DNA of 64,000 nt from Breoghania sp. L-A4 (GTDB lineage Bacteria; Pseudomonadota; Alphaproteobacteria; Rhizobiales; Stappiaceae). Of this stretch, positions 28,434 through 45,506 are shown in pieces. Position 1 is the stretch's first letter; each line of letters opens with the position of its first letter. The notes beneath the pieces are model-generated. The model was not told the origin of the DNA, ran no database searches, and saw only the letters and a program-made list of their open reading frames with translations. A program made the position numbers and the translations under genes. The stretch spans positions 1,899,579 to 1,963,578 of the forward strand of contig NZ_CP031841.1 of assembly GCF_003432385.1 (NCBI RefSeq). Reading direction: 5' to 3'.

Positions 28434-28525
28434 GGAGAGGTGGCCGAGTGGTCGAAGGCGCTCCCCTGCTAAGGGAGTAGGCGGGTTAAACTGTCTCGAG
28501 GGTTCGAATCCCTTCCTCTCCGCCA
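28434..28525 (+). tRNA. tRNA-Ser (anticodon GCT)
   Basis: A complete class II tRNA. The acceptor arms GGAGAGG and CCTCTCC pair and are followed by G-CCA. The anticodon stem ctccc/gggag encloses GCT (ccctGCTaaggg), and there is a long variable arm and a GGTTCGAATCC T-arm. CCA is encoded. The sequence just after it changes in composition and leads into the dnd genes, so the 3' end of this tRNA is a plausible integration site for the island. Confidence 0.96.
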
Positions 28526-28852: not shown

Positions 28853-30088
28853 CTACGTGATACCGATAGCTTCCTCGATGGCGCGGCGGATCACTGTTCG
28901 CCCAGATCCAGATGGATTTCGGAAACGCTCCGTTGCGAAGTCAATCGGGCGCGCGCCCTCCAGAAGCGCTGTGAAAAACCCAACGCTGATATCCTTCGCC
29001 TCCAGTGATTGCCCGGCGACTTTTCGAAGTATGTCGAAGATGGCCTGAACGCCAATTGTCCGGAATATGAAGGATTCCTCACTGGCATTCTTCCAGAAGA
29101 CATCCTCACTCGCTTTGAGATAGTTCAGAACCATTTTGTAGATAAGCGCGTCATTTCCTTCGATGAAGACCTCGCGGAGCGGTGAGCGATCGTTTGGTCC
29201 GTCCTTCAATCCACGGCGCGGTCTCGCCTCGTCCTTTCGCATAAGATTGGCGTCGCGCTTCGGATTGCTTGAGAACAGGCGAAGGATTCCATCTACGATC
29301 ACGGCTGTCGAAACACGCCAATTCGCCTCCGCCGCCAGTTTCTCAAGGGCGACATCACGCTTCGGCGCAACCATGATCCTTCCCTGAAGCGGCGAGTCGG
29401 AATCAGTACCGAGTTTACGCGTGAAAAATACGGCCAGCTTATCTGGCGTCCAGTATTCCTCAGCCTCGTCCGATACGTTGTAGCCGAACAGCTCATAGGT
29501 CAGACTGCGGTCCACACGCTTCTGCGTCGAATTGATAGTGGCGAAAACTTGAGCCTGGAGCGCCTTAGGCAGATCGAGGAAAACCGAACATAGCAAAGTC
29601 ATGCTGTCCATGGCATCAGCTTCGGCGCGAGCGAACGAAAAGAGCCGATGCTGGCCATCGATAATGGCAGCTAACTTCTTCGAAGACGGGATTGTGAGCT
29701 TGTGGCAGCCATCTTTAGATTCGGTGATCGACCAGACGTCCGATCTAACAAGCGGAACCCCTTCCTCGTCTGAGGACATGTATTCCAACTCGCCTTGATC
29801 GAAACCGGTATCAATATCATAATTTGCGGCCACGATGATCGAATTTGGGAAGGCGGAATCCACACGGTTGATGTAGGATGCAATCTCGTTCAGGCGCTTG
29901 TCTTGGATGAGACGCTGGGTACCTTCAAGAGTGTAGCCGCTGCCATCCTGCTTCATAGTCGCTCGCATCCGGTCACTGGCGGCAACTTGCAGAAGAAGTT
30001 CTGCCGGGAGGGCAACAACGAAAAAAGTGCCTAGGCGTTGGTCGACACGAAGGGCGTGGGTCTCATAGGGGAAGCTGAATTTGGTCAT
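28853..30088 (-). CDS. dndB: DndB-like DGQHR-domain protein
   Basis: A 411-residue protein with the signature DGQHR at residues 144-148 inside AAIIDGQHRLFSFARAEAD, followed by NSTQKRVDRSLTYELFG. DndB proteins regulate or limit DNA phosphorothioation together with DndC, DndD and DndE. Its start codon overlaps the stop of the membrane-protein gene upstream (ATGA), so it is translated as the last gene of the operon; in classical clusters dndB comes first. It could also be one of the phosphorothioation-associated DGQHR proteins rather than DndB proper. Lower GC than the host. Confidence 0.8.
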   Translation of the reverse strand: MTKFSFPYETHALRVDQRLGTFFVVALPAELLLQVAASDRMRATMKQDGSGYTLEGTQRLIQDKRLNEIASYINRVDSAFPNSIIVAANYDIDTGFDQGELEYMSSDEEGVPLVRSDVWSITESKDGCHKLTIPSSKKLAAIIDGQHRLFSFARAEADAMDSMTLLCSVFLDLPKALQAQVFATINSTQKRVDRSLTYELFGYNVSDEAEEYWTPDKLAVFFTRKLGTDSDSPLQGRIMVAPKRDVALEKLAAEANWRVSTAVIVDGILRLFSSNPKRDANLMRKDEARPRRGLKDGPNDRSPLREVFIEGNDALIYKMVLNYLKASEDVFWKNASEESFIFRTIGVQAIFDILRKVAGQSLEAKDISVGFFTALLEGARPIDFATERFRNPSGSGRTVIRRAIEEAIGIT

Positions 30089-30639
30089 TCTGTGAACCCA
30101 GTTGTACTGCCTGGAAGCTTGCGGGTCACACTACCGCCAACGGCGTCTTCAGGTTTGGGCTTCGTTTTTAGGTCTGGGTTATCTGCGTTCGCGACTGTCC
30201 AAATCCAAAGCCCAAAAAGCGACAAAATAAATGACAACGAAAAAATATGCTTCGGCCCCTCTTGGCGGAATTCTTGTATGCCAAGAACAGCCGCTGCAAT
30301 CAACATTATCAAAAGTGAGCTGATTGCAAAGACCGCCATCAAGGTTTTCGAATTCTTGACTGCCTCAAGCGTGAGCTGTAAAGACGCGGCACCTATTAGT
30401 GCGGGATAGAACACAGCCAATGCGGCACGCACACCCTGTAAGCCTTGGACGTCCAAAGGGCTTCCCGAGAACCAATACTTTACAATCTCCACAAAGACGC
30501 CAAAACCACTGAAGAGGACTACGCCAAAAACTAGATAGAAAATGAAGGTCAGATCGGACAAGGGCGTTTTCGTACGGCGCCTCAACTCTTTAAGAAACTC
30601 ACGATTATATTCGGAGTTTGTTTTATCCACTTCACTCAT
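30085..30639 (-). CDS. Four-helix membrane protein within the dnd operon
   Basis: A 184-residue protein beginning MSEVDKTNSEYNREFLKEL. After a charged cytoplasmic N-terminus come four hydrophobic helices: FIFYLVFGVVLFSGFGVFVEI, ALAVFYPALIGAASLQLTL, LMAVFAISSLLIMLIAAAVL and FSLSFILSLFGLWIWTV. A polar C-terminal tail follows. I know no family. It starts four bases after the dndE-herA stop, and its own stop overlaps the dndB start, so it is translationally coupled to both. An effector or membrane-anchoring role in this Dnd variant is an inference. Confidence 0.75.
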   Translation of the reverse strand: MSEVDKTNSEYNREFLKELRRRTKTPLSDLTFIFYLVFGVVLFSGFGVFVEIVKYWFSGSPLDVQGLQGVRAALAVFYPALIGAASLQLTLEAVKNSKTLMAVFAISSLLIMLIAAAVLGIQEFRQEGPKHIFSLSFILSLFGLWIWTVANADNPDLKTKPKPEDAVGGSVTRKLPGSTTGFTE

Positions 30640-30643
30640 TTGA

Positions 30644-32179
30644 TTACCAGGCTCTGATCTTCTTGGTGTTTTTGTCGAACCGCACGAAGCACTGGCCTGT
30701 CTGAAGGTTCGTAAGGTTGGCACCCTTGCCGAGAACGCGCGCTGCAGCCCCTGGCTTTGCGTTGGTCGCGAACGCTGCGACCAAGCCCATGTTGTCCAGG
30801 AACTCATCGTCTTCGCCGGAAAAGTCATCGGGAGATTGAGAGACCAGCATAACAACGCCGCCTTTGGATCGGCTCATACGGATCAGACGAGATAGCGAGG
30901 GCAGCTTGGTCCCGAGGATCTGGTGCGCTTCATCGATCATGCACAGGATGCGAAGACCCCGCGCGCCATCTGGGCTTGTCTCGGCATCCACAAGGCCATT
31001 CAGATACTGGTCCAGCGCATCCAGCAGTAGGTTGACGACAATTGTACGACTGTCTTCCGGGACGTTTGGCGGCAGCTTGATGATCCAGCTCTTCTGGAAG
31101 AACTCCGCCGGAGAGAACTTTGGCTCGAACAGCGGAAACCGGCACAACTCTTCCATGCTTGAAACGGCGCCGTCTTCCTTGACCTCATGCTCCTGATAGA
31201 CATCATGCAAGCGGTCGCGGATGTGCCGCAGTTCACAGGGTTCCTCCGAGGAAAGCGCTCGACTGGCCGCTTCATGGACGTAGTTGCGCTGGATGTTTCC
31301 CAGCTTTGAGCCCTTTAGCCGCGAGAAGGACTCGCGGAACCGCATCGCCGCCTCGTCAATCCCGAACTGGTCTTTCTGCGAGAGTGCAAGAACATCGAGC
31401 GGGATGGGCATGCGCGGAGGCTCGATTACCTGTGCCTCAAAGGCTTCACCGAGTGCGGTTTGAGCCTTCGTGCCAGTAAAGCCTGCGAGGTCCCCCTTGA
31501 AATCAAAGGCCAGCAGCGGCACCGGAGCCTGCTCACGAATGGAACGCAGCATGGCGGCTGCCATAACCGTCTTGCCCGAGCCGCTACCGCCCATGATTGC
31601 CGTGTGGGGCGCGCCACCCTTACCATTCAGGCTCCAAAAGACCTTTTCCTTGGTGGCGACATCCTCCCCGATCTCGCCGAGGGGAACTTTGATCTCGCCG
31701 CTGGAGAAAGTGGCGCCGGATGCGCCCGCGCCGCCGGACGTCGGCAAACGGCCTCCCGCTGAGGGAAGTTCAGCCACGTCTACAAGACGCCGGATAAATT
31801 GTCCGAGATCGGCTCCAGCCTGTTCCCACTCGTCGTCTAGCTTTGCTAGCCCACGCCGCCAATGGGCACCGACCAGCGTGACAAGTCTTTTGATATCGAC
31901 GTCCGGCTCCCCGGCACGCTCCACGATCAGCGCCAGCCATACGGAAAGCGCTGTGCCTGTGCCGAAAAGCGTGTCGCCCTTGATCACTTTTCCCGGCTCC
32001 AGCTCATCAGCTGAAAGGGAAATTGGAGCGCTCATCGCCAGGGAACGCGAGATTGCTAAGCGGGCGGGGAGATAGCGTTTGCGCATCCCAAGCCGCCCCA
32101 TGAAATCTGTGTTGAGCTTGTCGCTGTCGTAATCTGTGCGGAAGTTGGCGCCCGCGACTTCAACGAGGGAAATGCTCAT
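30644..32179 (-). CDS. dndE: DndE domain fused to HerA/FtsK-type ATPase
   Basis: A 511-residue protein with GGGAGGA before ATG 32179. Residues about 15-125 match DndE, the small protein that binds nicked DNA in phosphorothioation (YLPARLAISRSLAMS, GDTLFGTGTALSVWLAL). A glycine-rich linker leads into a HerA/FtsK-like ATPase: Walker A GGSGSGKT at 197-204, Walker B ILCMIDEAH at 411-419, then SKGGVVMLVSQSPDDFS. In most dnd systems DndE stands alone at about 110 residues. The fusion puts a DNA-translocase-like motor in the modification complex. It lies 44 bp after dndD. Confidence 0.85.
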   Translation of the reverse strand: MSISLVEVAGANFRTDYDSDKLNTDFMGRLGMRKRYLPARLAISRSLAMSAPISLSADELEPGKVIKGDTLFGTGTALSVWLALIVERAGEPDVDIKRLVTLVGAHWRRGLAKLDDEWEQAGADLGQFIRRLVDVAELPSAGGRLPTSGGAGASGATFSSGEIKVPLGEIGEDVATKEKVFWSLNGKGGAPHTAIMGGSGSGKTVMAAAMLRSIREQAPVPLLAFDFKGDLAGFTGTKAQTALGEAFEAQVIEPPRMPIPLDVLALSQKDQFGIDEAAMRFRESFSRLKGSKLGNIQRNYVHEAASRALSSEEPCELRHIRDRLHDVYQEHEVKEDGAVSSMEELCRFPLFEPKFSPAEFFQKSWIIKLPPNVPEDSRTIVVNLLLDALDQYLNGLVDAETSPDGARGLRILCMIDEAHQILGTKLPSLSRLIRMSRSKGGVVMLVSQSPDDFSGEDDEFLDNMGLVAAFATNAKPGAAARVLGKGANLTNLQTGQCFVRFDKNTKKIRAW

Positions 32180-32223
32180 GCCTGTCCTCCCGTCTCGTCA
32201 AAGTATCCGGGACGAACCGTGGA

Positions 32224-34260
32224 CTAACCGATATCACCAACCCGCTCAAAGTGGACCAGATACTTTTTCTGCACGTGCGGCGCAATTTCCCGAAGATACT
32301 CTCCCACGACTTCGGTGTTTGTGGAGAGCAAGATAACCTGATGTTCGCGCTGCACGAGATGATTCAGCACACCCTTACGATGCTCGATATCAAGACGTCC
32401 GAGCGGCGTATCGACCACCATTGGAAAGCCGCGGCCCGAAACCGACGACACGGCAGAGATCAAGGCTTGGGTGAAGATTTGCTTTTCACCAGCCGAGAGG
32501 TCGTAACCACGCAAGTCAACGCCAGCAGCATTTAGGAGCTTCACGTCGCAATTCTCATCGATGGCGATACGCTCCACCAGGTCTTTCTTGTGTGCCATAG
32601 AGCGGTGCGCCGTCGTCATGGCCGCCGCTATTGCGTCAATCTGGCTTGGCACTGCTTTTGCCACGATCTGGTCGACCATCATCGCGACCTTGTTCGCACG
32701 CGCGGCGCGCCGGGCGGACGGGGCAGCTTGGTCAAGCTGACCAGAGAGCTTCGTCAGATCCGTATTCTTCTGGCCAATTTGGCTTTCCAGCGAGGCCATC
32801 TCACGCCGCAGCGCCCCGATCTCCTGATCAAACCTCTGAAGTTCGCTGCCGACATGGGATAGGCGCTCGCGCTTCGTATCCACATGTGGTGCTACCGCTT
32901 CGGTGCGCATGACTTCATCTTGCAGACGCTTAAGCGCCTCTTCGTTGGCTGCAATGCTGGCCAACAGTTCGACAATCGCCGGCGCTCCCAACTCATCCAG
33001 CTCTTCGAGCCGGTCGATCACTTTGGAGCGTTCCAGCTCATTCAGGTATGGGTGCAGATAGACCTCTGCACAGTTGTCGGGAGGCGGATACCAGAGCTTC
33101 TCCCAAGCACTGCGAGCGCTGTTCAAAACGCCTTCTCGCTGGCCACCCGTGAGCGCCGGATCAAGCTCCTGCATGCCGGCATCGACCGAGGCAAGGAAAC
33201 GCTCCAGATTGCTGTCTCCCTGGCTTTTCCCATTCTCCCAGCGCTCGAGCACGCCCTCGCTCAGAAGCCGGGCCTTGACGCTCTTTCGAAGCGGTAGGCC
33301 GCACAGCGCCAGCGCAAGGTCTTTCATCATCAGATCTTCGAGCTGTGCATTTCCGTCTTCAATAGCGCGCTCATAGTTCTTGATCTGCTCGAATTGTTCT
33401 TGAAGTAGGGCCTGCGAACCAGCGCCAAAGCTGGCCAGTTCGCGGATCAGATGCTCCTGCTCTTCCTTTAGAGCGGCGCGACTGGGTTCTATTTCGGCCA
33501 GACGAGTTGACTTCTTGTCATACTAGAAGGTGAGCGTGTGTCGCTCGAGTTCCAGCTTTTCGATAGTCTTGTCGGAAACGTTCGGGGACTCCTTGCGCCG
33601 AACTTCTGCATAGGAGCGCAAGTCCTTTGCAAGTTGTTTCAGAACTGGAATACCGAGCAGACCTTCGATGCCAGCACGAACCTGCGCCGACATCTCCCGC
33701 TCTGCAAGCACGCTCACCTGTTCGCCATCGAACATGAAGAAGTGCGCCAATGTGAAGGGCAGAAGATTTTCTGCAATGTACTCGCGAAACCAATCTGCGC
33801 GGTCGTTTCCCTGCAACGCCCCTGGGCCAACGGCCTTGCGGGTTGAGCCCTCGTAGATGTGGATTTCCTCATCTTGAGGGCGATACGCGCCAGAGTCGCT
33901 GAAATGCCAGATGCGCTGAATTTCAAGCGGCTCATCATTGTCGTCGGTGAAGATCAGTTTCACAGAACAGGACGTACGCCCCGCCGCAGTTGCGCCACCA
34001 TGAAGCGCTTTCTCTAGAAAGTTTTTGTAGGAGGTAGCGAGACGCTCCTTGTCCGCACCTGAAAACGGCGAACGGGCGATCAGCGGCAGGCCATCCCGCC
34101 CGAACATCCCAAGCACAATGGCCTCAAAAAGACTTGTCTTGCCGTAGCCATTGGGGGCGCCGATCAAAACGATATTTCGACCGCTTGCCGGTGCCGGGAA
34201 ATCAAAATTGGCCGTCGTATAGGCCTTCCAGTCCCGCAACGTGATGTGTGAAAGATGCAT
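32224..34260 (-). pseudogene. dndD: DndD ATPase with in-frame amber codon
   Basis: The full frame is 678 residues, normal for DndD, an SMC/RecN-like ATPase of the phosphorothioation complex. The N-terminal half has Walker A GAPNGYGKTSLFEAI near residue 35. The C-terminal half has the ABC signature DLSAGEKQIFTQAL and Walker B FPMVVDTPLGRLD, separated by coiled-coil sequence. A TAG at 33523-33525 (codon 246, between TLTF and YDKKSTRLAEIEP) interrupts it with no change of frame. The natural stop is also TAG. It could be a nonsense mutation, a base-call error or a suppressed codon. Both halves otherwise look under selection. Confidence 0.88.
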
Positions 34261-34266
34261 GGGCTG

Positions 34267-34467
34267 TTATTCGTCCACTTGAATGCGGTCAAGGATATCG
34301 TCAAAGGAATCCCACAGGCCAGCTCGGCGTTGCTTTCCCGTTTGTTCAACCTCAGCCTGTACCAGCTCTTCAAACTCGGCGAAAAGCATCCCATTGGCCT
34401 TGCAGGCATCCTTGATCATGGTCCGTCCATCTGGATTATCGAGAAGCACAACAACATTTCGCGGCAT
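34267..34467 (-). CDS. Small dnd-operon-associated protein
   Basis: A 66-residue acidic soluble protein (MPRNVVVLLDNPDGRTMIKDACKANG ... WDSFDDILDRIQVDE) between dndC and dndD. It directly abuts dndC upstream and leaves six bases to dndD. It matches the small proteins repeatedly found in DNA modification operons. No activity is known; a structural role in the DndCD complex is plausible. Confidence 0.75.
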   Translation of the reverse strand: MPRNVVVLLDNPDGRTMIKDACKANGMLFAEFEELVQAEVEQTGKQRRAGLWDSFDDILDRIQVDE

Positions 34468-35622
34468 CTACTTGTCCTTCACGATTTCACGGACACTCAT
34501 TGTCCTCGACTTGCTGTGGCCCGCGATCTCTTCGGACCAAATCTGGTGGATGAGATCAACTTCTTCCTCTGTGATCAAGCTTTGTCCAGTCTCCTCCTCC
34601 AAGCCGCGGAGCCGTTCGAAAACCTCAGCGCGGGTCTGGAGGGTAAAGGGGCCAGGGATAAACGTTCCGCCATCCGTAATCGTGATGCGGCCGTCACGTC
34701 GCCGGGCTTGGCGGCGCTCCTTCTCGTTGCGGATCGAAACCAGCCAGTCCCGGAAGTCCAGAAGGGGCGTGAATTCGGCGTAACCGGACTCTACGAAGCC
34801 CTCAAGGCTCCGGTCTTTCTCCACAACCGTGCAGGTCCAGCAGCCAAAGCGCGAGGACGTCGTACCGCAGGACGGTGCATCATCCTTGGAGGTGACGACC
34901 GGGCACTCCCCACCGCTTGCATTGCGATAGAGACCGATAAGCTTGAGATGCGAACCGCCCCAAGGCGGTTCGTTAAGGGCCAGAAACTCCCAGACATCAT
35001 CGGTATGCAGTTCGACAATGGGTCGAAAGACCATGCAGCCAACAAGATCGTTGTGCTTGTTCAGGCGCTCTCCATTGTCATAGCGCCCTACCGAGGCGGC
35101 GCGCGTCGCGCTCTCTGATCGGCGCACCCCGAGCAGGAGAACAACCTTTCCGGCTTGGTCAACCTGGCTCTTGATGTACCGGCTGGTGGGAAGGATTTTC
35201 ATCCGATCTGTACACCAGCGGAACGAGCGATTCGGGGAAGGATAGCCCCGGCCAATCAGGTTTACCCAGAAGGACTGGTCCGGCGAAGGCCGCGTGATCT
35301 TGGTGATGACCGGAAGCCTGAACGCGCTGGCCGCTCCTTCGATCTCTTCCATGCTTTCGATGATGTGCTGGACGACAAGAGGGCTTTCGACCAGAGTGTC
35401 GTTGGCCACTACGTGCACCGGACGCGTGCGCTGCGAAGGTGGAAGGGACAAAAGCATCTCGAACACGAGATGCGTGACCAGTGTGCTATCCTTGCCCCCG
35501 GAATAGCCGATGATCCAAGGCCAATCGTGATCTTGGCGATACTCATCGAGTAGTTCTGCCTGAATAGCATCAAAGAGCGCTGCGCTCTCATCTTCAATGG
35601 CGAGTGCTTCAGCGCCGTCCAT
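34468..35622 (-). CDS. dndC: DndC, PAPS-reductase-like phosphorothioation protein
   Basis: A 384-residue protein and the first gene of the operon; ATG 35622 has GGGGGA eight bases upstream. The PP-loop SGGKDST lies at residues 41-47. Cysteines in FRWCTDRMK and in CPVVTSKDDAPSCGTTSSRFGCWTC can hold the 4Fe-4S cluster that carries sulfur from a cysteine desulfurase to DNA. DndC activates DNA with ATP and delivers sulfur into the backbone with DndD and DndE. It is somewhat shorter than many DndC proteins. dndA is missing, so a host IscS-type desulfurase is presumed to supply sulfur. Confidence 0.92.
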   Translation of the reverse strand: MDGAEALAIEDESAALFDAIQAELLDEYRQDHDWPWIIGYSGGKDSTLVTHLVFEMLLSLPPSQRTRPVHVVANDTLVESPLVVQHIIESMEEIEGAASAFRLPVITKITRPSPDQSFWVNLIGRGYPSPNRSFRWCTDRMKILPTSRYIKSQVDQAGKVVLLLGVRRSESATRAASVGRYDNGERLNKHNDLVGCMVFRPIVELHTDDVWEFLALNEPPWGGSHLKLIGLYRNASGGECPVVTSKDDAPSCGTTSSRFGCWTCTVVEKDRSLEGFVESGYAEFTPLLDFRDWLVSIRNEKERRQARRRDGRITITDGGTFIPGPFTLQTRAEVFERLRGLEEETGQSLITEEEVDLIHQIWSEEIAGHSKSRTMSVREIVKDK

Positions 35623-35818: not shown

Positions 35819-36175
35819 TCACTCCACCGGAACCGGCTCCAGCAACCGCGCCAGCGTCACCTCCGGCCCCTGTCGCCCGTCCAGGATTGCCTCGACGATG
35901 TCGGGCGCGAGCAGAGTTAGCTGCAGGACGCGGGTCATGTAGGAGGAGGCGATCCCTTCGCGCTCGGCAAGCTCGGCGATGTTCGTGAACTCGCCGGATT
36001 CCAGCATGCGTTTCCAGCGAAATGCGCGGGCCAGCGCCTTGATCAGCGTGTTGTCGGTCTTGCGCTTTTGAGGCGAGTCCTCAGACAGCTGCATCTCCTT
36101 GCGCCCGCCGCGCTTCACGACACGGAACGGGACATGGAGTGTCACCGTCTCGGGGATCGGCGTCGCGCGGGTCAT
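35819..36175 (-). CDS. Small helix-turn-helix protein of the recombinase cassette
   Basis: A 118-residue protein starting at ATG 36175, which overlaps the recombinase stop (ATGA). The central segment NIAELAEREGIASSYMTRVLQLTLLAPDIVEAILDGRQ is a helix-turn-helix of the KorB/ParB type often encoded after phage-type serine recombinases in alphaproteobacteria. It probably binds DNA, perhaps as a recombination directionality or regulatory factor. That role is inferred only from position. Confidence 0.75.
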   Translation of the reverse strand: MTRATPIPETVTLHVPFRVVKRGGRKEMQLSEDSPQKRKTDNTLIKALARAFRWKRMLESGEFTNIAELAEREGIASSYMTRVLQLTLLAPDIVEAILDGRQGPEVTLARLLEPVPVE

Positions 36176-36971
36176 GCTGCCGCGCCCATGTCGCCGGCCG
36201 GCAACTCGCGCGCGAGGCCGTGGAGGCCATCCACCCGCAGCCGAATGTCGAGCCCCTCGGCGCCGATATCGACTCTCTCGATCAGCAGCGCCACGATGCG
36301 CGCCTGCTCGGCGGGAAAGAGTTCGTCCCACAGCGGGTCAAGCTGTTGCAGGGCGGCGCGGGCGTCGGCCTCGGTGATGTCGCCGTCTTGCGCCCGGGCC
36401 GCCTTCCAAGTCCCCGCCACGATCTCGGGCTGGCGGAACACGACGCGGAACTGGTTGATGACGGCGGCTTCGATCTCGCCCGCAGGAACGCGTCCGACCG
36501 GACACGACCCTGCGCCATGCTTCAATACCGTCTGGCTGACGTAATAGCGGTAGAGTTTCCCACCCTTCCGGGTATGCGTCGGCGAGAACGCGGCACCGTC
36601 CGGGCCGAACAGCAACCCTTTCAGCAGCGCGGGCGTGTCGGCGCGGGTGCGGGCGGCGCGCTTTCGGGGCTCTCTTGCAGAATGACGTGGACCTTGTCCC
36701 ACGTCTCGCGGTCGATGATGGCCGCGTGCTCGCCGGGATAGCTGTCGCCCTTGTGGACCGCTTCGCCGATGTAGGCGCGATTGTTCAGCATCCGGTAGAG
36801 GTACTTCTTGTCGATCCGGTTGCCGCGCGGCGTGCGGATACCGCGCGCGCCGACCTTCCGCGCCAGTTCCGTGCAGGATCCGATCTCGAGGAAGGGGGCG
36901 AAGACCCAGCGGACATGCTCGGCGCGCTCATCGTCGATGACCAGCTTCCGGTTCTCGACGCGGTAGCCGTA

Positions 36972-37813
36972 GGTCACATACTCATAAAACGGGATTCCCT
37001 TGGCGCGAGAGTTCTGATTCACTGACCATCATCAATGGAGGTCAGGATGGCTCGCTTCGATCTGACGGATTTCGAGTGGTCTGTGATACAGCCGCTTCTG
37101 CCGACAAAGGTGCGTGGGGTCCCGCGCGCCGATGACCGCAAGGTGCTGAACGGCATCTTCTGGCGGCTGCGCACGGGAGCGCCTTGGGCCGACATTCCGG
37201 CGCGCTATGGCCCGTACACGACCTGCGTCAACCGCTTCAACCGCTGGCGCAAGGCTGGCCATTGGGCACGCATTCTTGAAGCGGTATCAAATGCTTACGA
37301 CGGTGACGTGCAGATGATCGACTCGTCATCGATCCGCGTTCACCAGCACGCCGCCAACGGCCAAAAAAAGAGGAGCGATCCCGTTGCATGGGTCGCTCGC
37401 GCGGCGGACTGACCACCAAGATCCATGCGCTCGTCGACGCCGAGGGCCGGCCGATCCGCCTCAAGCTGACCGAAGGCCAGGCCCACGACGGACGCTCGGC
37501 CGCCGACATGTTCGAAACGCTCAAGGCCGGTCACATCCTGCTCGCCGACCGCGCCTATGACAGCGATGCCTTGCGCGCCGAAATGGCCGCGCGGGGCGCA
37601 TGGGCCAACATCCGCGCCATGCCGAACCGCGTCAAAACCTTCCCCTTCAGCCCCTGGGTTTATCGGCAACGCAACGCCGTCGAGCGTTTCTTTAGCAAAC
37701 TCAAACACTTCAGGGCCATTGCCACACGATACGACAAGCGCGACGCCAATTTTCTCGCGTCAGTCCAACTCGCTTCAATCCGCATATGGCTGCGAACTTA
37801 TGAGTCGGTCACC
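36972..37813 (+). mobile_element. IS5-family (IS427-group) insertion sequence, 842 bp
   Basis: Imperfect terminal inverted repeats are visible: left GGTCACATACTCATAA and right (reverse complement) GGTGACCGACTCATAA. The target dinucleotide TA is duplicated at 36970-36971 and 37814-37815, as expected for this group. The single transposase is encoded in two overlapping frames. The element interrupts the serine recombinase and appears complete, so it may still be active. Confidence 0.92.
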
Positions 37814-37816
37814 TAG
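37047..37816 (+). CDS. IS427-type transposase, made by -1 frameshifting
   Basis: Frame A starts at ATG 37047 (GGAGG five bases upstream) and encodes MARFDLTDFEWSVIQPLLPTKVRGVPRADDRKVLNG with the first catalytic Asp in VQMIDSSSIRVHQHA; it stops at 37412. Frame B, in -1, encodes GRSRGGLTTKIHALVDAEGRP, the second Asp in LLADRAYDSDALR, and the Glu in NAVERFFSKLKHFR. The join is a canonical slippery heptamer A-AAA-AAG at 37364-37370. The stop TAG at 37814-37816 is formed by the duplicated TA plus the next host base. Together the frames give a DDE transposase of about 256 residues. Confidence 0.9.
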
Positions 37817-38336
37817 GGCGGGACGCCGCCCATCCACATGCCCTTTCTGCGGCTCGCGGCGACCTTGTCGCGGATGCGTTCGGCCGTCACCTCGCGCTCG
37901 AACTGCGCGAACGACAGCAGGATGTTCAGCGTCAGCCGACCCATGGAAGTCGTCGTGTTGAACGACTGCGTCACCGAGACGAAGGTCACCCCGTTCCGGT
38001 CGAACACCTCGACCAGCTTGGCGAAATCGGCGAGCGAACGACTGAGACGGTCGATCTTGTAGACGACGACCACGTCGACCAGCCCGTCCTCGATATCCTC
38101 CAGCAACCGCTTCAGGCCGGGGCGTTCCAGCGTACCGCCCGAAATGCCACCGTCGTCATACTGATCGCGGACCAGCACCCATCCCTCGGACCGCTGGCTG
38201 GCGATGTACGCCTCGCAGGCCTCGCGCTGGGCGTGGAGCGAGTTGAACTCCTGCTCCAGCCCTTCCTCACTGGACTTCCGGGTGTAGACGGCACAGCGCA
38301 GCTTGCGGACGACCTTCGATTTCTCCGGCGGCTTCG

Positions 38337-38792
38337 TCATGTCCGCCCCCTGTGGTTCTTGAGCCCGAAGAAGACCCAGCCGTTCCAGCGCGTCCCGGTG
38401 ATGGCCCGCGCGATGGCGGACAGCGACTTGTAGGGCCGCCCCTGCCATTCGAAGCCATCGGCGGTGACGGTGACCACCTGCTCGACACCCTGCCATTCTC
38501 GCAGGAGGCGCGTGCCAGTGATCGGGCGGTCACGGTCGGCGCGGATGCCGCGCTTGGATCGGTCGCCGCCGTCCAGTTCCTCACCGAGCCGCTCCAGGCG
38601 CCGGACCGTCTCCGGTTTCAGTCCGCCATAGGCCAGTTCCTGGATACGATAGGCGATGCGGCTTTCGAGAAAGCGCCGGTTGAACGGCGGCGGCTCGCTG
38701 TCGAACAGGTCGCGCCACTGTTGCTTCAGATCGGGCGTCGGCGTGGTCTTGAGCGCGGCCAGGCGCGCGGGGATGGGATCGGGCTTGTTCAT
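38337..38792 (-). CDS. DUF2924 domain protein
   Basis: A 151-residue protein; ATG 38792 has GGAG seven bases upstream and the stop overlaps the recombinase start (ATGA). DUF2924 features include PPPFNRRFLESRIAYRIQELAYGGL, GTRLLREWQGVEQVVTV, and FEWQGRPYKSLSAIARAITGTRWNGWVFFGLK. The family nearly always precedes a phage-type serine recombinase. DNA binding in excision or integration is a reasonable guess, but no activity is known. Confidence 0.88.
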   Translation of the reverse strand: MNKPDPIPARLAALKTTPTPDLKQQWRDLFDSEPPPFNRRFLESRIAYRIQELAYGGLKPETVRRLERLGEELDGGDRSKRGIRADRDRPITGTRLLREWQGVEQVVTVTADGFEWQGRPYKSLSAIARAITGTRWNGWVFFGLKNHRGRT

Positions 38793-38992: not shown

Positions 38993-39180
38993 GTCTCGTG
39001 GCCGTGTTCGGTGGTGGATACCGAACAAAAGCCACCCGGCCACCCGGGATGGGACATCTCATGAAAGCGGGATCAGGAAATGCGAACAGGAAGAGAACAT
39101 CAGGGCTTGCCGATCACGGATTTGTCCATGATTATCGCAGGTTGAATCAAGCAAGAGCAGTAGTTCGTTGAGGTAAGATC

Positions 39181-39357
39181 ATGGCGCGTAAAGCAACTCC
39201 GATCAGTCCCCTTGTCCTGGCGCTGATCGAGGATGCGCGCGTGGCTCTTGCCCCAGCGATTCTCTCGGCCCGGGAGGGAGGTGATAGTCACCGCAGTCCC
39301 CAGAGACGACATCGCGGTGTCAAGCGCCGAGCACGGCCCCGCAATCGCGATCTATAG
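39181..39357 (+). CDS. Small basic hypothetical protein
   Basis: A 58-residue frame with GAGG upstream: MARKATPISPLVLALIEDARVALAPAILSAR followed by an arginine-rich tail. It lies in the stretch where the start of the RuvC-like gene should be. It may be real or a product of rearranged DNA; I have no family match. Confidence 0.3.
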   Translation: MARKATPISPLVLALIEDARVALAPAILSAREGGDSHRSPQRRHRGVKRRARPRNRDL

Positions 39358-39384
39358 TCCAAATCAGCATTTCCGGAGATTTAT

Positions 39385-39912
39385 ATGGTACGCGCCCCGG
39401 CCAGAACTTGCCCCAATCTTTCTCGGCTATTCGACGATGCAGAGCCGGAACTGCTGTCTGGATTTCTTGAGAGCAAGGCTTTCGAGAGGCTGATCCGCGC
39501 CCATGACGGCCAGATCACCAGCGGCACCGTCTCGCTGCGCCCCGGCCGCTTCGACGGCGGTGGTATGCGCTACCTCCGTTTCACCAACTGGCTAACCGAG
39601 ATCGACCGGCTGTCCGGTCCTGTCGCCGCGATCTGGTTCGAGGAAGTCCGCCGCCACGCGGGCACCGACGCGAGCCACATCTACGGCGGGCTCATGGCCA
39701 CGCTGACCGCATGGGCCGAGCTGCGCGGCGTGCCCTACGAGGGCGTCCCGGTCGGCACGATCAAGCGTCATGCCGCAGGCAAGGGCAACGCCGACAAGGC
39801 CACGATGGTCGCCGCCGTCCGTGCCCGCGGCTTCAGCCCGGCCGACGACAACGAGGCCGACGCCATCGCCATCCTGCTCGGGGCGATCGAGACGAACGGA
39901 GGTGTCGCATGA
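39385..39912 (+). pseudogene. RuvC-like endonuclease lacking its native N-terminus
   Basis: From about residue 35 the protein reads AHDGQITSGTVSLRPGRFDGGGMRYLRFTNWL, IWFEEVRRHAGTDASHIYGGLMATLTAWAELRGVPYEGVPVGTIKRHAAGKGNADKA and FSPADDNEADAIAILLGA. This is the phage RuvC-like Holliday-junction nuclease family. The normal start, a strand with the first catalytic Asp (of the form LALDLGTTTGW), is replaced by an unrelated 34-residue segment (VRAPARTCPNLSRLFDDAEPE). With that aspartate missing the enzyme should be inactive. A ribosome site (CCGGAGAT) precedes ATG 39385, so a protein may still be made. Confidence 0.75.
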
Positions 39913-39913
39913 G

Positions 39914-40108
39914 ATGGCACCCCATGGCTACGGCGGTCGGCGCCGCGATCCCGAGCAGGTCAAGCGCGAGGACTGGCGGGAACAGGGCGTCCTCGCGGTC
40001 TCCGCCGATGACGACCGCCTCATCTGGCCCGAGCGTGAACTGGTCCGCCAGCTGGGCGAGAAGCTCTACGGCCCGCGCCCTTCCGACAGGGAGGCGCATC
40101 ATGGCTGA
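39914..40108 (+). CDS. Small prophage protein, unknown function
   Basis: A 64-residue charged protein (MAPHGYGGRRRDPEQVKREDWREQGVLAVSADDDRLIWPERELVRQLGEKLYGPR) that begins just after the RuvC-like stop and overlaps the start of the next gene by eight bases. This packing and its even composition support translation. The same small gene appears to be a standard part of related alphaproteobacterial prophages. Function unknown. Confidence 0.65.
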   Translation: MAPHGYGGRRRDPEQVKREDWREQGVLAVSADDDRLIWPERELVRQLGEKLYGPRPSDREAHHG

Positions 40109-40482
40109 TCGTGAATGGACCGCCGACTGTGTCGCCGATCATTTCGAGGAGGCGTTCCGCACCCCGCGCAAACTGCCGCCAGTGAAGGCGCCAGGGCTAC
40201 TTCAACACCTGGCCCGACATCTTGCACACCAGCCGCGAGATCGCGGCGATGGAACCGCAGCCGATGCGGGTCTGGCCCTCGGCCGCCGCGATCACCCGGC
40301 TCGAGCAGACCTTCGACTGGGTGCTCTGGATCGAGGAGGCGGAGCGCAAACTGGTCTGGTCTCGCGCGGCCCGCGTGCCGTGGAAGCAGATTAGCGGAGA
40401 ACTCGGTTGCGACCGCACGACCGCATGGCGGCGTTGGCAGCTGGCGCTGACCAAGATCGCTGCGCGCCTGAATGCACAGTGA
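40101..40482 (+). pseudogene. DUF6362 family protein, frameshifted
   Basis: ATG 40101 starts MADREWTADCVADHFEEAFRTPRKLPPVKA. The family continuation, GYFNTWPDILHTSREIAAMEPQPMRVWPSAAAITRLEQTFDWVLWIEEAERKLVWSRAARVPWKQI ending in TTAWRRWQLALTKIAARLNAQ, is in the +1 frame. The shift lies at about 40188-40196 and requires one base less (or two more), unlike the other shifts in this window. DUF6362 is a phage helix-turn-helix-type protein found near terminase genes. Intact length would be about 126 residues. Confidence 0.75.
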
Positions 40483-40899
40483 CTCCAATGTGTTGCAACA
40501 CTTTTTCCTTCGACATCTGCAACATGATCGTGCTATTCCGAAGGCAAGATGGGGAGAGTGCGCTGGAAAGCCCGCTCTCCCCTTTGCGTTGACGGGGGCC
40601 TGCTGGACCCCGGTATCCAGCGGGGGTCCGGCCGGGGTCCAGCCCACGGCAGTTTCCGGTTCCTTCCTGGCGATATTCGTATGCTGGCGGGCGAAGCGCG
40701 GGACATCGCCAGCGACAGGGCCGGATTTTTGGGAAGCCACCCGGAAGCCGGATCCACCCGAGCCCCGCGCAAACCCCAATGAACGCTGGCCTTCGGGCTG
40801 GATAGCCCTGACGCCGCTGGACCCCGCGTGGAGTCCGGCGCGGCATCCGGTGTCCGGAGTCCGGCCAGCATCCACCTGAACATCGGGAACCACCCGCCC
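40483..40899. repeat. Gene-free segment with gtccgg/ggacccc repeats
   Basis: About 415 bp with no convincing gene. It holds many copies of gtccgg and ggacccc and short dyads such as gctggaccccggtatccagc (about 40602-40621). Similar repeat-rich spacers lie before this methyltransferase in related prophages. A regulatory or packaging role cannot be judged. Confidence 0.4.
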
Positions 40900-42234
40900 A
40901 TGACGCTGAGCTTCGCCCCGGACACGATCGAGATGTGGCCGCTGGCCAAGCTTCAGCCCTACGCGAAGAACGCGAAGGCGCATGGCGCGGACCAGGTCGC
41001 GAAGATCGCCGCCAGCATGGCGGAGTTCGGCTGGACGGTTCCCTGCCTGGTTGCCGAGGACGGCGAGCTGATCGCCGGGCACGGGAGAGTGCTGGCCGCG
41101 ACGCAGCTCGGTCTGGCCGAGGCGCCAGTGATCGTGCTGGGGCATCTGACCGAGGCGCAGCGGCGGGCTTACCGCATCGCGGACAACAAGCTGACCGAGC
41201 TCAGCACCTGGGACGAGGCGCTGCTGTCGGCGGAACTGAATGACCTGCTGGCCGAGGATTTCGACCTGTCGCTGGTCGGCTTCTCCGACGGCGAACTCGA
41301 CAAGCTGCTGGCCTTCGTGCCGGAGGTGGACGGGCAAGAAGGTGGCGCCGGGGGCTCCGTGCCGCCGGTGACCATCCCCGAGCCGCCGCGGAATCCGGCC
41401 TCGCGCACCGGCGATCTGTGGATCCTCGGCGACCACCGGCTGCTCTGCGGGGACTCGACCAGCCACGACGATGTGCGTCGCCTGATGAATGGCGAGCGCG
41501 CGATCCTGTTCGCGACCGACCCGCCTTATCTTGTGGACTATGACGGCTCGAACCACCCGACCCGGAACAAGGATTGGTCGGCGTCCTACGGTACGACCTG
41601 GGACGACAGTTCGCAGGGCGCGGAGCTCTACGACGGCTTCATCGCTGCGGCCGTGGCCGAGGCCATCGCCGAGGACGCCGCCTGGTATTGCTGGCACGCC
41701 TCGCGTCGCCAGGCGATGCTGGAAGCCTGCTGGGAAAAGGCAGGCGCCTTCGTGCACCAGCAGATCATCTGGGTGAAGGACCGCGGGGTTCTGACCCGCT
41801 CCCATTACCTCTGGAAGCATGAGCCCTGTTTCATGGGCTGGCGGCGTCCGAACCGCCCGCCGAAGGTGGCCGATCAGACGCTGCCCTCGACCTGGGAGAT
41901 GCCGTCCTTCGCCAAAGACGAGCGCCCCGACCATCCGACGCCCAAGCCGCTCGACGCCTTCGGCATCCCGATGCGCCAGCACGTCGCCCGCGGTGGCCTC
42001 TGCTACGAGCCGTTCTCGGGCTCCGGCTCGCAGATCATGGCGGGCGAGGCCAATGGCCGCCGCGTCTTCGCGATGGAAATCAGCCCCGCCTATGTCGATG
42101 TCGCCGTTGAGCGCTGGCAGGCCGCGACCGGCCGCGACGCGATCCTCGACGGCGACGGTCGGACCTTCGCGCAAGTGAGAGCCGAGCGGCTGGGCGAGAA
42201 CCCGGCCGCGCGGGAAAAGGAACTAGGACTCTAG
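40900..42234 (+). CDS. ParB-domain DNA methyltransferase (N4/N6 type)
   Basis: A 444-residue protein. Residues about 5-110 are a ParB/sulfiredoxin-like nuclease domain (MWPLAKLQPYAKNAKAHGADQVAKIAASMAEFGWT, IAGHGRVLAATQLG). The second half is an adenine-N6/cytosine-N4 methyltransferase with the catalytic DPPY (FATDPPYLVDYDG), a target-recognition segment and the S-adenosylmethionine motif YEPFSGSGSQIMAG near the C-terminus. The order is the beta/group N6-N4 type common in phages and prophages. It is probably an orphan enzyme that protects phage DNA; no nuclease partner lies next to it. The start is uncertain because an in-frame ATG at 40828 is also possible. Confidence 0.9.
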   Translation: MTLSFAPDTIEMWPLAKLQPYAKNAKAHGADQVAKIAASMAEFGWTVPCLVAEDGELIAGHGRVLAATQLGLAEAPVIVLGHLTEAQRRAYRIADNKLTELSTWDEALLSAELNDLLAEDFDLSLVGFSDGELDKLLAFVPEVDGQEGGAGGSVPPVTIPEPPRNPASRTGDLWILGDHRLLCGDSTSHDDVRRLMNGERAILFATDPPYLVDYDGSNHPTRNKDWSASYGTTWDDSSQGAELYDGFIAAAVAEAIAEDAAWYCWHASRRQAMLEACWEKAGAFVHQQIIWVKDRGVLTRSHYLWKHEPCFMGWRRPNRPPKVADQTLPSTWEMPSFAKDERPDHPTPKPLDAFGIPMRQHVARGGLCYEPFSGSGSQIMAGEANGRRVFAMEISPAYVDVAVERWQAATGRDAILDGDGRTFAQVRAERLGENPAAREKELGL

Positions 42235-42244
42235 AAGCAGTCTG

Positions 42245-42661
42245 CTACTGTGATGGGATTGGATAGACAGTCGTGGTGTACGAACAGTCGATGTAGAAGA
42301 CCTGCCCGATTTGATCATATCCGCCGCCGCTTTCAGCGTGAAGACTGGCACACATCGATGTAGGTGCTAGGAGCCCACCGATTGGAACGCCCTGAGCACT
42401 TGTGCTCGCCTCCCGGCACCAGTGAGTTCTAGGCGAGTTGATGCTAGCGATCTGGCCGCTAACGGACTGTCCTGCCGCAAAATAGCTTCCCTCAGGCGCG
42501 TTGGCGCAAACGATTCCATCCGCAGTGCAGCCACGGCCATCAGCTGGCTTTCTGCATTCAACTCGTAGGTTAAAGGAATGGGATTCTTGCGCAATTACTT
42601 GCGAACTCACTACGGACGAAAATGCGCCAACTGCAAACGCGGTAAAAAAAAGTGCTTTCAT
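42245..42661 (-). CDS. Secreted cysteine-rich hypothetical protein
   Basis: A 138-residue protein with a clear signal peptide (ALFFTAFAVGAFSSVVSSQVIA) and five or six cysteines in a small soluble domain (VECRKPADGRGCTADGIVCANAPEGSYFAAGQ ... THWCREASTSA ... DCSYTTTVY). It lies antisense between two methyltransferase genes, where the N-terminal half of the second one has been lost, and its GC is lower. I do not recognise the family. It looks like a cargo gene carried by the prophage. Confidence 0.65.
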   Translation of the reverse strand: MKALFFTAFAVGAFSSVVSSQVIAQESHSFNLRVECRKPADGRGCTADGIVCANAPEGSYFAAGQSVSGQIASINSPRTHWCREASTSAQGVPIGGLLAPTSMCASLHAESGGGYDQIGQVFYIDCSYTTTVYPIPSQ

Positions 42662-42731
42662 GTGGGCCTCCTATCGCCAATGCACAATCTAAAGTTGCCA
42701 CAGACCGAGTAATTTACCTAACGTAAAATAG

Positions 42732-43445
42732 TGGCCCTTCGTCTTCCTCGAGAACGTCGCCCATCATCTCCGCCTCGGCTTCCCCGAAGTCGCCGGCGGA
42801 CTGGTCGGCATGGGCTACAAGCTTGCGGCAGGCCTCTTTACGGCGGCGGAAGTCGGTGCGCCCCACAAGCGCGAGCGGCTCTTCATCCTCGCCATCCGCG
42901 AGGGACACGAACTGGCCGACCCCGCGCGCCTGCTCTGGCACCCGGTCGAGTGGCGGGAACCGGACGGAACTGCTGCGGCTTTGGCCGACGCCGCGAGCCA
43001 GCGCCAACGAGAACAGGCAGACGAAGCCGACGCCGTCGCAGACAGCGGGCCAGCACGGGATGAACCTCGCGACGACGGCCGCGCTCTGGCCGACGCCGAT
43101 GGCGAACGACGGCTGCAAACCGAGCGCAGGCAACCGCAAGACGGCCGATCTGAGCCACGCCAGCCGTATGTGGATGACGCCGACAGCGCGCGATCACAAG
43201 GATGGGACGACGACATTGGCGAACACACCGGTGAACGGCCTGCTTGGCCGCCAGGTCCTGGTGACGCCGATGGCTGGGAGCGATACCTCGGAGCCGCGCC
43301 GGCCCTTGAACCCGCTGTTCGTCGAGGCGCTGATGGGCTGGCCCACCGGGTGGACCGGCTTCGCCTCTGTGGCAACGGCGTGGTCCCCCTGGTTGCGGCG
43401 CATGCGCTGCGAACTCTCGCGGCTGAACTGCTGGCCGATGGATGA
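42732..43445 (+). pseudogene. DNA cytosine-5 methyltransferase, C-terminal remnant
   Basis: A TAG at 42729 precedes the frame, which begins at WPFVFLENVAHHLRLGFPEVAGGLVGMGYKLAAGLFTAAEVGAPHKRERLFI. This is motif VI (ENV) and motif VIII of Dcm enzymes. It ends with the motif X sequence VDRLRLCGNGVVPLVAAHALRTL. Motifs I and IV, including the catalytic PCxxxS, are gone, so the remnant is inactive. A second frame one base on (to 43458) is also open across the same region and carries other Dcm-like signatures. Confidence 0.8.
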
Positions 43446-43454
43446 GGTGACGGC

Positions 43455-43730
43455 ATGAAGCAATCGCGCGCCATGTCGCTGCTCGAGTCCGTCGCCAACG
43501 TGATCGTCGGCTACGGCGTCGCCGTGGTCACGCAGATCCTTATCTTCCCGGTCTTCGGGCTGCACACGACGCTGGCCCAGAACCTGAAGATGGGTGCGGT
43601 GTTCACCGTGGTGAGCATAGCGCGGTCCTACGTCCTGCGGCGCCTGTTCGAGGCGATCCACTATCGGTCGCTGGTTGTCTTTCCGAAGAAGGGGCTTAAG
43701 AACCTGGATCACCTTGGCCCTCGGTCCTAG
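43455..43730 (+). CDS. DUF7220 family small membrane protein
   Basis: A 91-residue protein (MKQSRAMSLLESVANVIVGYGVAVVTQILIFPVFGLHTTLAQNLKMGAVFTVVSIARSYVLRRLFE) with two hydrophobic helices, matching the DUF7220 family of phage proteins. Its start overlaps the end of the alternative frame of the methyltransferase remnant. The last 25 residues are unlike the family and may be acquired by loss of the original stop. Function unknown. Confidence 0.8.
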   Translation: MKQSRAMSLLESVANVIVGYGVAVVTQILIFPVFGLHTTLAQNLKMGAVFTVVSIARSYVLRRLFEAIHYRSLVVFPKKGLKNLDHLGPRS

Positions 43731-43782
43731 TTTTGAGGTATGCACAGCATGCAGCTGAATTCTCGTAGCAAGGACGCCCAGG

Positions 43783-44528
43783 GTGCCATCAATTGATAAC
43801 TTGGACGAAGGAGATCGTGATGCTGAGCGCGTCCAAGGTCTCATGGTTGATGTCGAATCTTCATTTGCGACCCGTGTCCTGCCGAGCCTAGTGGCGATTT
43901 ATGCCTCACATCACCTGAATCCCGAGGCCCCAGTCCAAGTGGGCACGGGGATCTTGATAGACCACAAGTCGCGTCCGGTCCTTGTGACCGCGCGGCACGT
44001 ACTTCGTGGCCACAACTTCGACGAGGAGCCCGCTGAGAAAGCATTTCATATTGACGGAAGGTGGGTCTACGTCGGTGACGGTCCCAGATCTCTATCTGAG
44101 GCTAAAGATCGAGATCTAGCTGCGTTCTACGCCGATGAATTTAAATTTCGCCAACTCTTGCCGCCACCCGCTGTAACTGCCGCCAACGAGACGGCGAACG
44201 TAATCACTATCGGTGGGTTTCTCTCGCGCGATTTCAAAAGGGATGGGGTGTTCTGCAGCCCAAGCCGTGGGTCTACAGCAACAAAAGTGTCGGGGATGAA
44301 AGCGGCATGGTCGGTCTTCTCTACCCGAAGCGGCACAACGTGGAGTCCAAAACAAGCGAAGCGATATTCAATTCTATACCACGCGGCCTCTCGGGTGGGC
44401 CGATGTTGAATACAGTGAATCTTTTGAACGGAATGGTCGAAATAGTTGGAGTATTCACTGAGCAAAGCGATGGAACTGCGCGGGGAGAATGCGCCACCCT
44501 CGTTTCAAGTTTGTTGAACCAAATGTAG
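43783..44528 (+). pseudogene. Trypsin-like serine peptidase, frameshifted
   Basis: The first frame (GTG 43783 or ATG 43843 as start) carries LPSLVAIYASHH, GTGILIDHKSRPVLVTARHVLRGHN with the catalytic His, and KDRDLAAFYADEF with the Asp. The second frame, reached by adding one G at 44245-44248, continues PKPWVYSNKSVGDESGMVGLLYPKRHNVE and IPRGLSGGPMLNTVNL with the nucleophilic Ser. All three catalytic residues are therefore present when the shift is repaired, giving about 248 residues. There is no signal peptide, so it should act inside the cell. The lower GC suggests recent acquisition by the prophage. Confidence 0.7.
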
Positions 44529-44618
44529 CGGCAGGGCGAATTTGTCTGGGTTTGCGCGATGATGAGAAACCGCCGCCCAGATGGACGGCGGTATCGAGCT
44601 CGACTTTCGGCGTGCGCG

Positions 44619-45191
44619 TCAGTCGCGCGGCAGGCTGTAGACCCGCCCTCGGCCCTCGACCTTCTCGGAGGTTACTTCGAGCCCGAGCTTCTTCTTCAGG
44701 GCCCCGGCCATCGCGCCGCGCACCGTGTGCGACTGCCAGCCCGTCGCGGCCATGATCTCCTCGATGGTCGCGCCGTCCGGTGCGCGCAGCATGGCGATCA
44801 GCGTGGCCTGCTTGGTGCCCTCGCGCGGCGTGCGCGCCTTGGGCGTGGCTTCGGGTCCGGTGGGGGTGTCCGGCGCGGGCTTCTCTGTCGGCGCGTCCGT
44901 CGCGCCCGCAGGCGCGGTGTTCGCGTCCTCGGGCTCGATGCCGATGGCGGCGAGGCCAGCGTCGGTGGCGACCAGTGTGACGCCGTGGCCGTCTCCGGTC
45001 TCGCGCCAGACGGGTTCGCCCTTGCGCATGTCCGCGTCGACCTCCTGCAGGAAGCCCTTCGCGAGCATCGCGCCGACCACCTTGGCGGCAGCGCCGCCGC
45101 GCAGGCTCTCGGGCAGCGGCAGGGCGATGCGGTCCTCGCGCTGTGCGGCGGCGCTCAGGATCAGGGCTTGGGTATCGGAAAGCTTGGACAT
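44619..45191 (-). CDS. DUF3489 domain protein
   Basis: A 190-residue protein with two DNA-binding-like modules. The first (residues 5-85) has LSDTQALILSAAAQREDRIALPLPESL. A linker rich in Pro, Ala and Thr follows, then the DUF3489 domain with REGTKQATLIAMLRAPDGATIEEIMAATGWQSHTVRGAMAGALKKKLGLEV. The latter is a winged helix-type fold found in prophages. It probably binds DNA as a regulator. Confidence 0.88.
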   Translation of the reverse strand: MSKLSDTQALILSAAAQREDRIALPLPESLRGGAAAKVVGAMLAKGFLQEVDADMRKGEPVWRETGDGHGVTLVATDAGLAAIGIEPEDANTAPAGATDAPTEKPAPDTPTGPEATPKARTPREGTKQATLIAMLRAPDGATIEEIMAATGWQSHTVRGAMAGALKKKLGLEVTSEKVEGRGRVYSLPRD

Positions 45192-45281
45192 CGTCGTCTC
45201 CCGTATCGGGGCGCGCAGGATGCGGGCCCTTCTACGAGGTCGAGCCCGCCAGTCGGCGGGCGGGACCGGGAGCGGGTCGTC

Positions 45282-45506
45282 TCACTCGGCGTGTTCGCCT
45301 TCGCTGAAGGCCATGTCGGTGATCTCGCGCAACTTGGTGCGGTAGTGGTTCAGGGTGCCGACATGGCCCCAGTTGATCTCGTCGGGGCTGGTCTCGAAAT
45401 GGTCCGCGCTGAGGGCGGCGAGCCGCTCCAGCATCGCGTCGATCTCGGTCTTCGCGGCGATGAAGGCGTCGAGGGCTTTCGTGATGTCGGTCGCGCGGCG
45501 GGTCAT
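45282..45506 (-). CDS. Small prophage protein, unknown function
   Basis: A 74-residue acidic helical protein (MTRRATDITKALDAFIAAKTEIDAMLERLAALSADHFETSPDEINWGHVGTLNHYRTKLREITDMAF); ATG 45506 has AAGGAG upstream. It lies 91 bp downstream of the DUF3489 gene start, reading the same way. Homologues are usual in this type of prophage next to DUF3489. Function unknown. Confidence 0.7.
   Translation of the reverse strand: MTRRATDITKALDAFIAAKTEIDAMLERLAALSADHFETSPDEINWGHVGTLNHYRTKLREITDMAFSEGEHAE

Follow-up and report, generated by a model that had tools for sequence, protein, structure and literature searches.

What does a Dnd phosphorothioate (PT) modification operon that lacks the dndFGH restriction genes do with its marks? 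The question is raised by a 64,000-nt stretch of the Breoghania sp. L-A4 genome (contig NZ_CP031841.1, positions 1,899,579 to 1,963,578; hereafter the window), in which dndC, a 66-aa gene, dndD and a dndE::herA fusion are followed, all on the minus strand and in that order, by genes for a predicted membrane protein (TM) and a DGQHR protein. Comparison with related loci, designated below by L numbers, indicates that TM and the DGQHR gene are a two-gene cassette that is swapped as a unit between closely related operons. We see an even chance that this cassette reads DNA modification and delivers a defence output at the membrane.

Organization of the operon

The operon comprises the following features.

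34468..35622, minus strand: dndC, PP-loop sulfurtransferase (TIGR03183, 368 bits; cut-off 290)
34267..34467, minus strand: 66-aa gene directly 3' of dndC, a separate gene conserved in relatives
33523..34260, minus strand: dndD 5' piece, 245 aa (TIGR03185, 110.7 bits; profile positions 1-219)
32224..33522, minus strand: dndD 3' piece, with its own open reading frame (ORF) from 33330 (TIGR03185, 132.4 bits; profile positions 377-637)
30644..32179, minus strand: dndE::herA fusion, 511 aa (PF08870, PF01935)
30085..30639, minus strand: TM, predicted four-helix membrane protein, 184 aa (hydropathy, AlphaFold2, family alignments)
28853..30088, minus strand: DGQHR protein (TIGR04172), with a predicted ParB/Srx-like fold and a C-terminal helical part

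The order, strand and coordinates agree with the original prediction, made from the sequence alone, which nevertheless overlooked a stop codon that leaves dndD in two pieces and called the last gene dndB-like. That gene belongs to TIGR04172 and has no match at E ≤ 0.1 to the DndB equivalog TIGR03233. The TM gene begins 4 nt beyond herA, and its end runs 4 nt into the DGQHR gene; together with four hydrophobic segments in the hydropathy profile, this bears out the predicted 184-residue four-helix membrane protein coupled between dndE-herA and the last gene.

DndC has 384 aa from its ATG, in an ORF that is open from a TTG at 35625. The 66-aa gene matches the DndC C-terminus weakly (E 0.005). It is a separate gene in 10 of the 10 relatives with dndC available, and its relatives carry the annotation 'DNA modification system-associated small protein' (SP in the locus descriptions below). 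Recoding of the in-frame TAG between dndC and this gene was ruled out, given the separate gene in relatives and a frame that differs from that of dndC in L008, L009 and L010.

TM has a basic-rich N-terminal helix and a C-terminal GG...GF tail that is conserved in most relatives in the family alignments. Its AlphaFold2 monomer model has a predicted local distance difference test score of 77.9, and the genome holds one copy. No match of weight was found in Pfam, NCBIfam, PADLOC or PHROG, and no PADLOC model matched at E ≤ 0.1. The best sequence match among solved structures, a piece of an amino acid transporter (E 0.013), was not convincing, and neither was anything in a fold comparison with solved structures. 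An E. coli TM is named 'accessory gene regulator B family protein' by NCBI, in keeping with a Pfam match of 24 bits (cut-off 23); the window TM has no AgrB match in Pfam.

The DGQHR protein (411 aa) scored 489.1 bits against TIGR04172 (cut-off 450), a family over its cut-off in one of 385 sampled genomes, the window's own. ParB-type nucleotide-binding proteins were its leading structural matches, and it has the predicted ParB/Srx-like domain with a DGQ[QH]R motif that marks SspE- and DndI-type proteins. It also falls in the broad Pfam DndB family (PF14072, 37.6 bits; cut-off 29.1). The family profile libraries gave no nuclease family match, HNH included.

Pairing of the DGQHR protein with a membrane protein

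We scored the DGQHR proteins of all available loci, other than L005 and the split protein of L089, with one profile built from 11 of the top 21. The scores formed two groups, one of at least 118 bits (21 distinct proteins) and one of at most 70 bits (43 distinct proteins). A predicted membrane protein lay directly upstream in all 21 high-scoring, TIGR04172-like cases, with four segments in 17, five in one, three in two and two in one. The 43 low-scoring, more distant proteins comprise, judged by their lengths, both single-domain chains and chains as large as SspE or DndI. In 26 cases an ORF of 110 aa or more lay upstream, never with three or more segments (those of L086 and L062 had two); the other 17 had no such ORF. 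TM and DGQHR genes overlapped by 4 or 1 nt in 15 of the 20 loci with checked coordinates.

Whether TM lies mostly outside dnd loci, an outcome named in advance as telling against the original prediction, was addressed by four plasmid records from two TM queries: in all of them TM stood beside a DGQHR gene in a phosphorothioation locus. The plasmid records examined were 14 of 41, picked without regard to TM, and one locus comparison took 37 of 40 loci, leaving out L065, L066 and L069. A possible Gram-positive analogue is found on a Lactiplantibacillus plasmid (L086:2954-4906), where a more distant DGQHR protein is encoded beside MazEF-type genes and preceded by a 273-aa protein that has two hydrophobic segments.

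Exchange of the cassette between related cores

Fifteen loci with DndE::HerA were found, to which we added the window as well as L017 (from a plasmid) and L024 (viral). Twelve loci had the complete core with 1.5 kb or more of sequence beyond it; a DGQHR gene was present in eight, and none was found by the profile used in four (L010, L012, L017 and L024). The window's TM family and TIGR04172 followed the core in L002, L006, L009 and L014; L007 belongs here too but was cut by the contig end. L003 and L004 carried another membrane protein with a DGQHR protein about 29% identical, and L005 a non-membrane protein with a DndB-like DGQHR protein. L008 was likewise cut by the contig end, and L011, L013, L015 and L016 contained an incomplete core. 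For L019-L023, whose cores are distant, less than 1.5 kb of downstream sequence was available, and no DGQHR gene was found in it.

The cores of L003 and L005 are sisters at 100/99 support with 91-92% DNA identity, and their downstream parts align at 45%. Those of L006 and L007 are 93-96% identical in DNA, with 50% downstream and TM proteins that are 38% identical. In a Mantel test on seven loci, TM and DGQHR correlated with each other at r 0.85 (37 of 5000 permutations) and with the core at r 0.05 and -0.27; across 20 loci the TM-DGQHR value was r 0.84 (0 of 5000 permutations), all r values being inflated by relatedness and the seven-locus value driven by two cassette types. The larger test took 20 of the 21 loci, with L031 out as near-identical to L090 and L047 standing for L048.

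The partner in the L005 slot (L005:11556-12098) resembled a GIY-YIG protein by eye, which Pfam (E ≤ 0.01), PDB sequences and PHROGs did not support. A similar gene of 354-386 aa runs convergent to the operon end in L005 (13463-14527), L006 (9969-11033) and L009 (13361-14521), two loci with TM cassettes and one of the non-membrane type; by eye its product has an N-terminal hydrophobic part and a part like a S-adenosylmethionine (SAM) methyltransferase. In L028, a SAM methyltransferase gene overlaps the end of the DGQHR gene.

The DndE::HerA fusion

The predicted fusion of DndE to a HerA/FtsK-type ATPase held up: the 511-aa chain matches PF08870 (25.6 bits; cut-off 25) and DUF87 (32.8 bits; cut-off 23.2) and has a Walker A motif, GGSGSGKT, and a Walker B-like motif, MIDEAH. 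The DndE equivalog TIGR03184 gave 13.6 bits, below its cut-off of 71.85. Residues 187-460 match the solved DptH structure 7es4, and PADLOC gave 61.4 bits for DndH and 62.5 bits for the mad8 model. Such a fusion is not new: in some PT-modification systems, DndE has been reported to carry a fused HerA/FtsK domain and to stand beside an ATPase related to DndD (PMC10853773; Rakesh, Aravind and Krishnan 2024).

At least 702 proteins among 7998 candidates scored were related to the fusion at E ≤ 0.001. DndE::HerA loci occurred in 1 of 397, 3 of 385 and 5 of 31 genomes in three samples. Beyond these, viral contigs gave none in one search and one in another, plasmids gave one full-length locus, and the phages searched gave none. 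The locus L017, on the Methylorubrum extorquens AM1 megaplasmid, has a DndE::HerA core 56% identical and was unannotated in the collection; no DGQHR gene was found downstream. Throughout, the fusion keeps company with dndC-SP-dndD, whatever follows downstream.

Genomic contexts of the cassette

Fifteen of the 21 cassettes lie in PT-associated loci. Seven of these stand 3' of a DndE::HerA core (the window, L002, L003, L004, L006, L009 and L014). In L028 and L029 the cassette is beside a dndC-SP-dndD-'FtsK' operon on the opposite strand; in L026 it is beside canonical dndBCDE and a desulfurase on the other strand; L027 has it with dndC, DndE and FtsK-type genes. L025 and L030 hold PT-annotated genes, including a TIGR04095-type enzyme, with no dndC within the 19 kb read, and in L087 and L088 the cassette lies between dptFGH-type genes and dndEDCB.

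Around five further cassettes the sequence read contains an adenine methylase and lacks dnd genes. In L048 (the same as L047) the methylase is of the Dam family and its gene overlaps that of TM, and in L032 a Dam-family methylase lies near the cassette; L085 has an adenine methylase and a BglII-type enzyme, and L031 and L090 have MT-A70 and BglII-type genes, the methylase about 2.6 kb away. The last cassette, L091 (the same as L045 and L046), has no such companions: it was present in 3 of 5426 E. coli genomes, flanked by tail genes of a P2-like prophage; the L045 DGQHR protein gave two partial phage matches. E. coli has Dam. P2-like prophages in general carry hotspots of anti-phage systems (PMC9122126).

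The L089 cassette query was at least 80% covered in 109 of the 5426 E. coli genomes (any match: 123). In strains 55989 and 3985 an L089-type cassette lies between dptH and dndE, and its DGQHR gene, beside dptFGH/dndEDCB, is annotated as two ORFs (L098:10057-11217 in 55989). The position in 55989 recalls that of dndI in Salmonella, which is reportedly beside dndBCDE and cotranscribed with dndFGH (PMC11662687).

These contexts bear on two other accounts of the locus. In the original prediction, DndE-HerA and the membrane protein together formed an alternative restriction or abortive-infection output. The likeness of the ATPase to DptH, a restriction-complex ATPase, and the TM start so close behind herA agree with this. 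It is nonetheless very improbable, as exchange of the downstream genes leaves the fusion with the same core partners, and TM genes are found both next to canonical dnd genes that lack the fusion and in places with no dnd genes nearby. What survives of the earlier idea is the membrane gene as a putative output; its partner would be the DGQHR protein and not the ATPase, which stays with the core.

A second account makes the DGQHR protein a DndB-like PT regulator anchored by the membrane protein, the pair tuning modification. Membership of PF14072 fits, as does the report of DndB as a negative regulator (PMC10853773). We consider it improbable, if somewhat less so than the preceding one: TIGR03233 is unmatched, a separate annotated dndB stands beside the pair in loci such as L026 and L087, and some of the stretches read have the cassette without dnd genes.

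The spread of contexts raises the possibility, doubtful as it stands, of a general class of modification-reading membrane immunity in which a DGQHR/ParB-type reader is joined to a four-helix effector. It would have one branch for PT, accompanying Dnd, Dnd-HerA, Pbe and DndFGH systems, and another for N6-adenine methylation, found close to adenine methylases, of the Dam family or not, and as a solitary cassette in a P2-like prophage of E. coli, a Dam-positive host.

A candidate output at the membrane

As originally predicted, the locus has no dndFGH: DptF (TIGR03238) was detected in both control records and is absent from the whole Breoghania genome, the locus and the rest of it alike; a matching dndFGH set elsewhere was the other outcome named in advance as telling against the prediction. 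The best genome score for the Pbe-type restriction enzyme TIGR04095 was 21.7 bits against a cut-off of 600 (647 bits in the control record of L025), and the genome has no GmrSD_N/DUF262 protein. With none of these three PT-linked outputs detected, we regard the final two genes as the leading candidate for an output. In line with the lack of dndA noted for the window, nothing in the genome exceeded the DndA cut-off; a desulfurase beside dnd genes in a control record was also below it (461.5 of 480), and the genome has two other cysteine desulfurase matches, of 246 and 121 bits. IscS is reported to be able to replace DndA in vitro (PMC10853773).

SspE (PMC9646914) and DndI (PMC11662687) are described as having a DGQQR ParB-like domain with PT-stimulated NTPase activity, coupled to an HNH nickase. 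The DGQHR protein shares the ParB-like domain with its DGQ[QH]R motif; unlike these single chains with a C-terminal HNH nickase, it comes without a detected nuclease and with a separate membrane protein. Since the reader-like half lacks a detected nuclease and a membrane protein lies upstream in 21 of 21 cases, we infer that the membrane protein may take the nickase's place. In the reading that we favour, DndC, the small protein, DndD and DndE::HerA would place PT on DNA, with the HerA ATPase as the DNA motor of the modification core. The DGQHR protein would bind DNA by its mark through the predicted ParB/Srx nucleotide pocket, as SspE and DndI do, and would then switch the state of the membrane protein in place of a fused nuclease. 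The membrane protein might then permeabilise or arrest the cell during infection. Two observations qualify the idea of an abortive-infection output: more distant TM-DGQHR pairs exist without dnd genes, and dndD is broken in this strain.

The order of events could also be the reverse, as in Kiwa, with the four-helix protein as a membrane sensor of infection, the DGQHR protein as a DNA-binding effector and the host mark sparing self DNA. Kiwa has the same two-gene plan: KwaA is located in the inner membrane, and its partner KwaB binds the DNA that is injected (PMC12904381). The ParB-type structural matches of the DGQHR protein and the tight overlap of the two genes are also in keeping with this order. 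PADLOC-DB presumably holds Kiwa models; no homology to Kiwa was detected, TM having neither a PADLOC nor a fold match, and the DGQHR protein shows no nuclease domain. The cassette is, in contrast to Kiwa, linked to DNA modification genes, which a Kiwa-like order would leave with a protective role only. We therefore regard this order as unlikely, though a more serious contender than either of the two accounts above.

Interruption of dndD and state of the operon

An in-frame TAG at 33523-33525 splits dndD. The N-terminal ATPase half breaks off there, 245 residues long, and the C-terminal half follows without a change of frame. The stop lies between the two ATPase halves, in what we take to be the start of the coiled coil. 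Neither piece reaches the TIGR03185 cut-off of 245.85 bits, so an intact DndD was not found. None of 10 relatives checked has a stop at this position, although dndD is apparently frameshifted further on in two of them (L008 and L010). The 5.03-Mb genome has no second copy of the dndD 3' half. Recoding of the stop was ruled out from the relatives without it, with no genome-wide search for a suppressor tRNA having been made. DndD could conceivably be assembled from two pieces, but this is unlikely, as translation of the second would have to start afresh 64 codons downstream.

The PT system is thus probably disabled or silent in this strain. As the strain lives with an intact TM and DGQHR pair and a broken dndD, a lack of PT is probably not enough by itself to trigger the effector. 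SspE requires PT to act and DndI is toxic without PT (PMC9646914, PMC11662687), and the broken dndD hints, weakly, that the cassette is nearer to SspE.

Alternatively, the operon may now be without function in this strain, carried along by a mobile element and decaying; we find the case for and against this equally balanced. Decay would account for the stop in dndD and for an adjacent serine recombinase gene broken by an insertion sequence (IS). The remaining reading frames are open, however, including both cassette genes and both halves of dndD, and the stop could be a sequencing error.

Flanking regions

The serine recombinase gene (window 36172-38496) is interrupted by an IS4/5-family transposase (37035-37816), which separates a resolvase N-domain (37813-38496) from a recombinase domain (36621-37022) and suggests that the Dnd island can no longer move in this way. 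Window positions 39000-48300 are prophage-like, with a gpA terminase large subunit (46163-47548) and a DNA methylase that by eye has a ParB-like start (40828-42234). The viral contig L024 has a core relative beside similar methylase genes, so the Dnd core may ride on prophages. The other flank is a tRNA gene.

28434..28525, plus strand: tRNA-Ser(GCT), operon flank

This gene lies 327 nt past the DGQHR stop codon, and no second copy of its 3' end, as an attachment-site repeat, was found within the window.

Relation to known systems

Two elements of the locus are already known. The DndE-HerA Dnd variant has been described, with HerA/FtsK fused to DndE beside a DndD-related ATPase; the passages on it in PMC10853773 describe no membrane gene or TIGR04172 partner, and here dndD is broken. 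TIGR04172 was named DPT-associated DGQHR protein 1 in the ProPhylo study (PMC3226654), as a novel DPT satellite family analogous to DptFGH. That study mentions no membrane partner (the word 'membrane' occurs 0 times in its main text), and we find weaker relatives without nearby dnd genes. The membrane partner, the exchange of the cassette and the non-PT branch are apparently new: no description of them was found in the open-licence PMC literature, supplements excluded.

The known readers of PT marks cut DNA. Should the cassette read a mark and take effect at the membrane, abortive infection would be linked to the discrimination of self from non-self by DNA modification, and were the general class real, restriction-modification logic would have the membrane, not a nuclease, as its output. 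As a two-gene unit that is present in E. coli too, the cassette is open to direct testing in laboratory strains. If the reading is right, it could account for the use that some Dnd loci make of their marks when DndFGH is missing.

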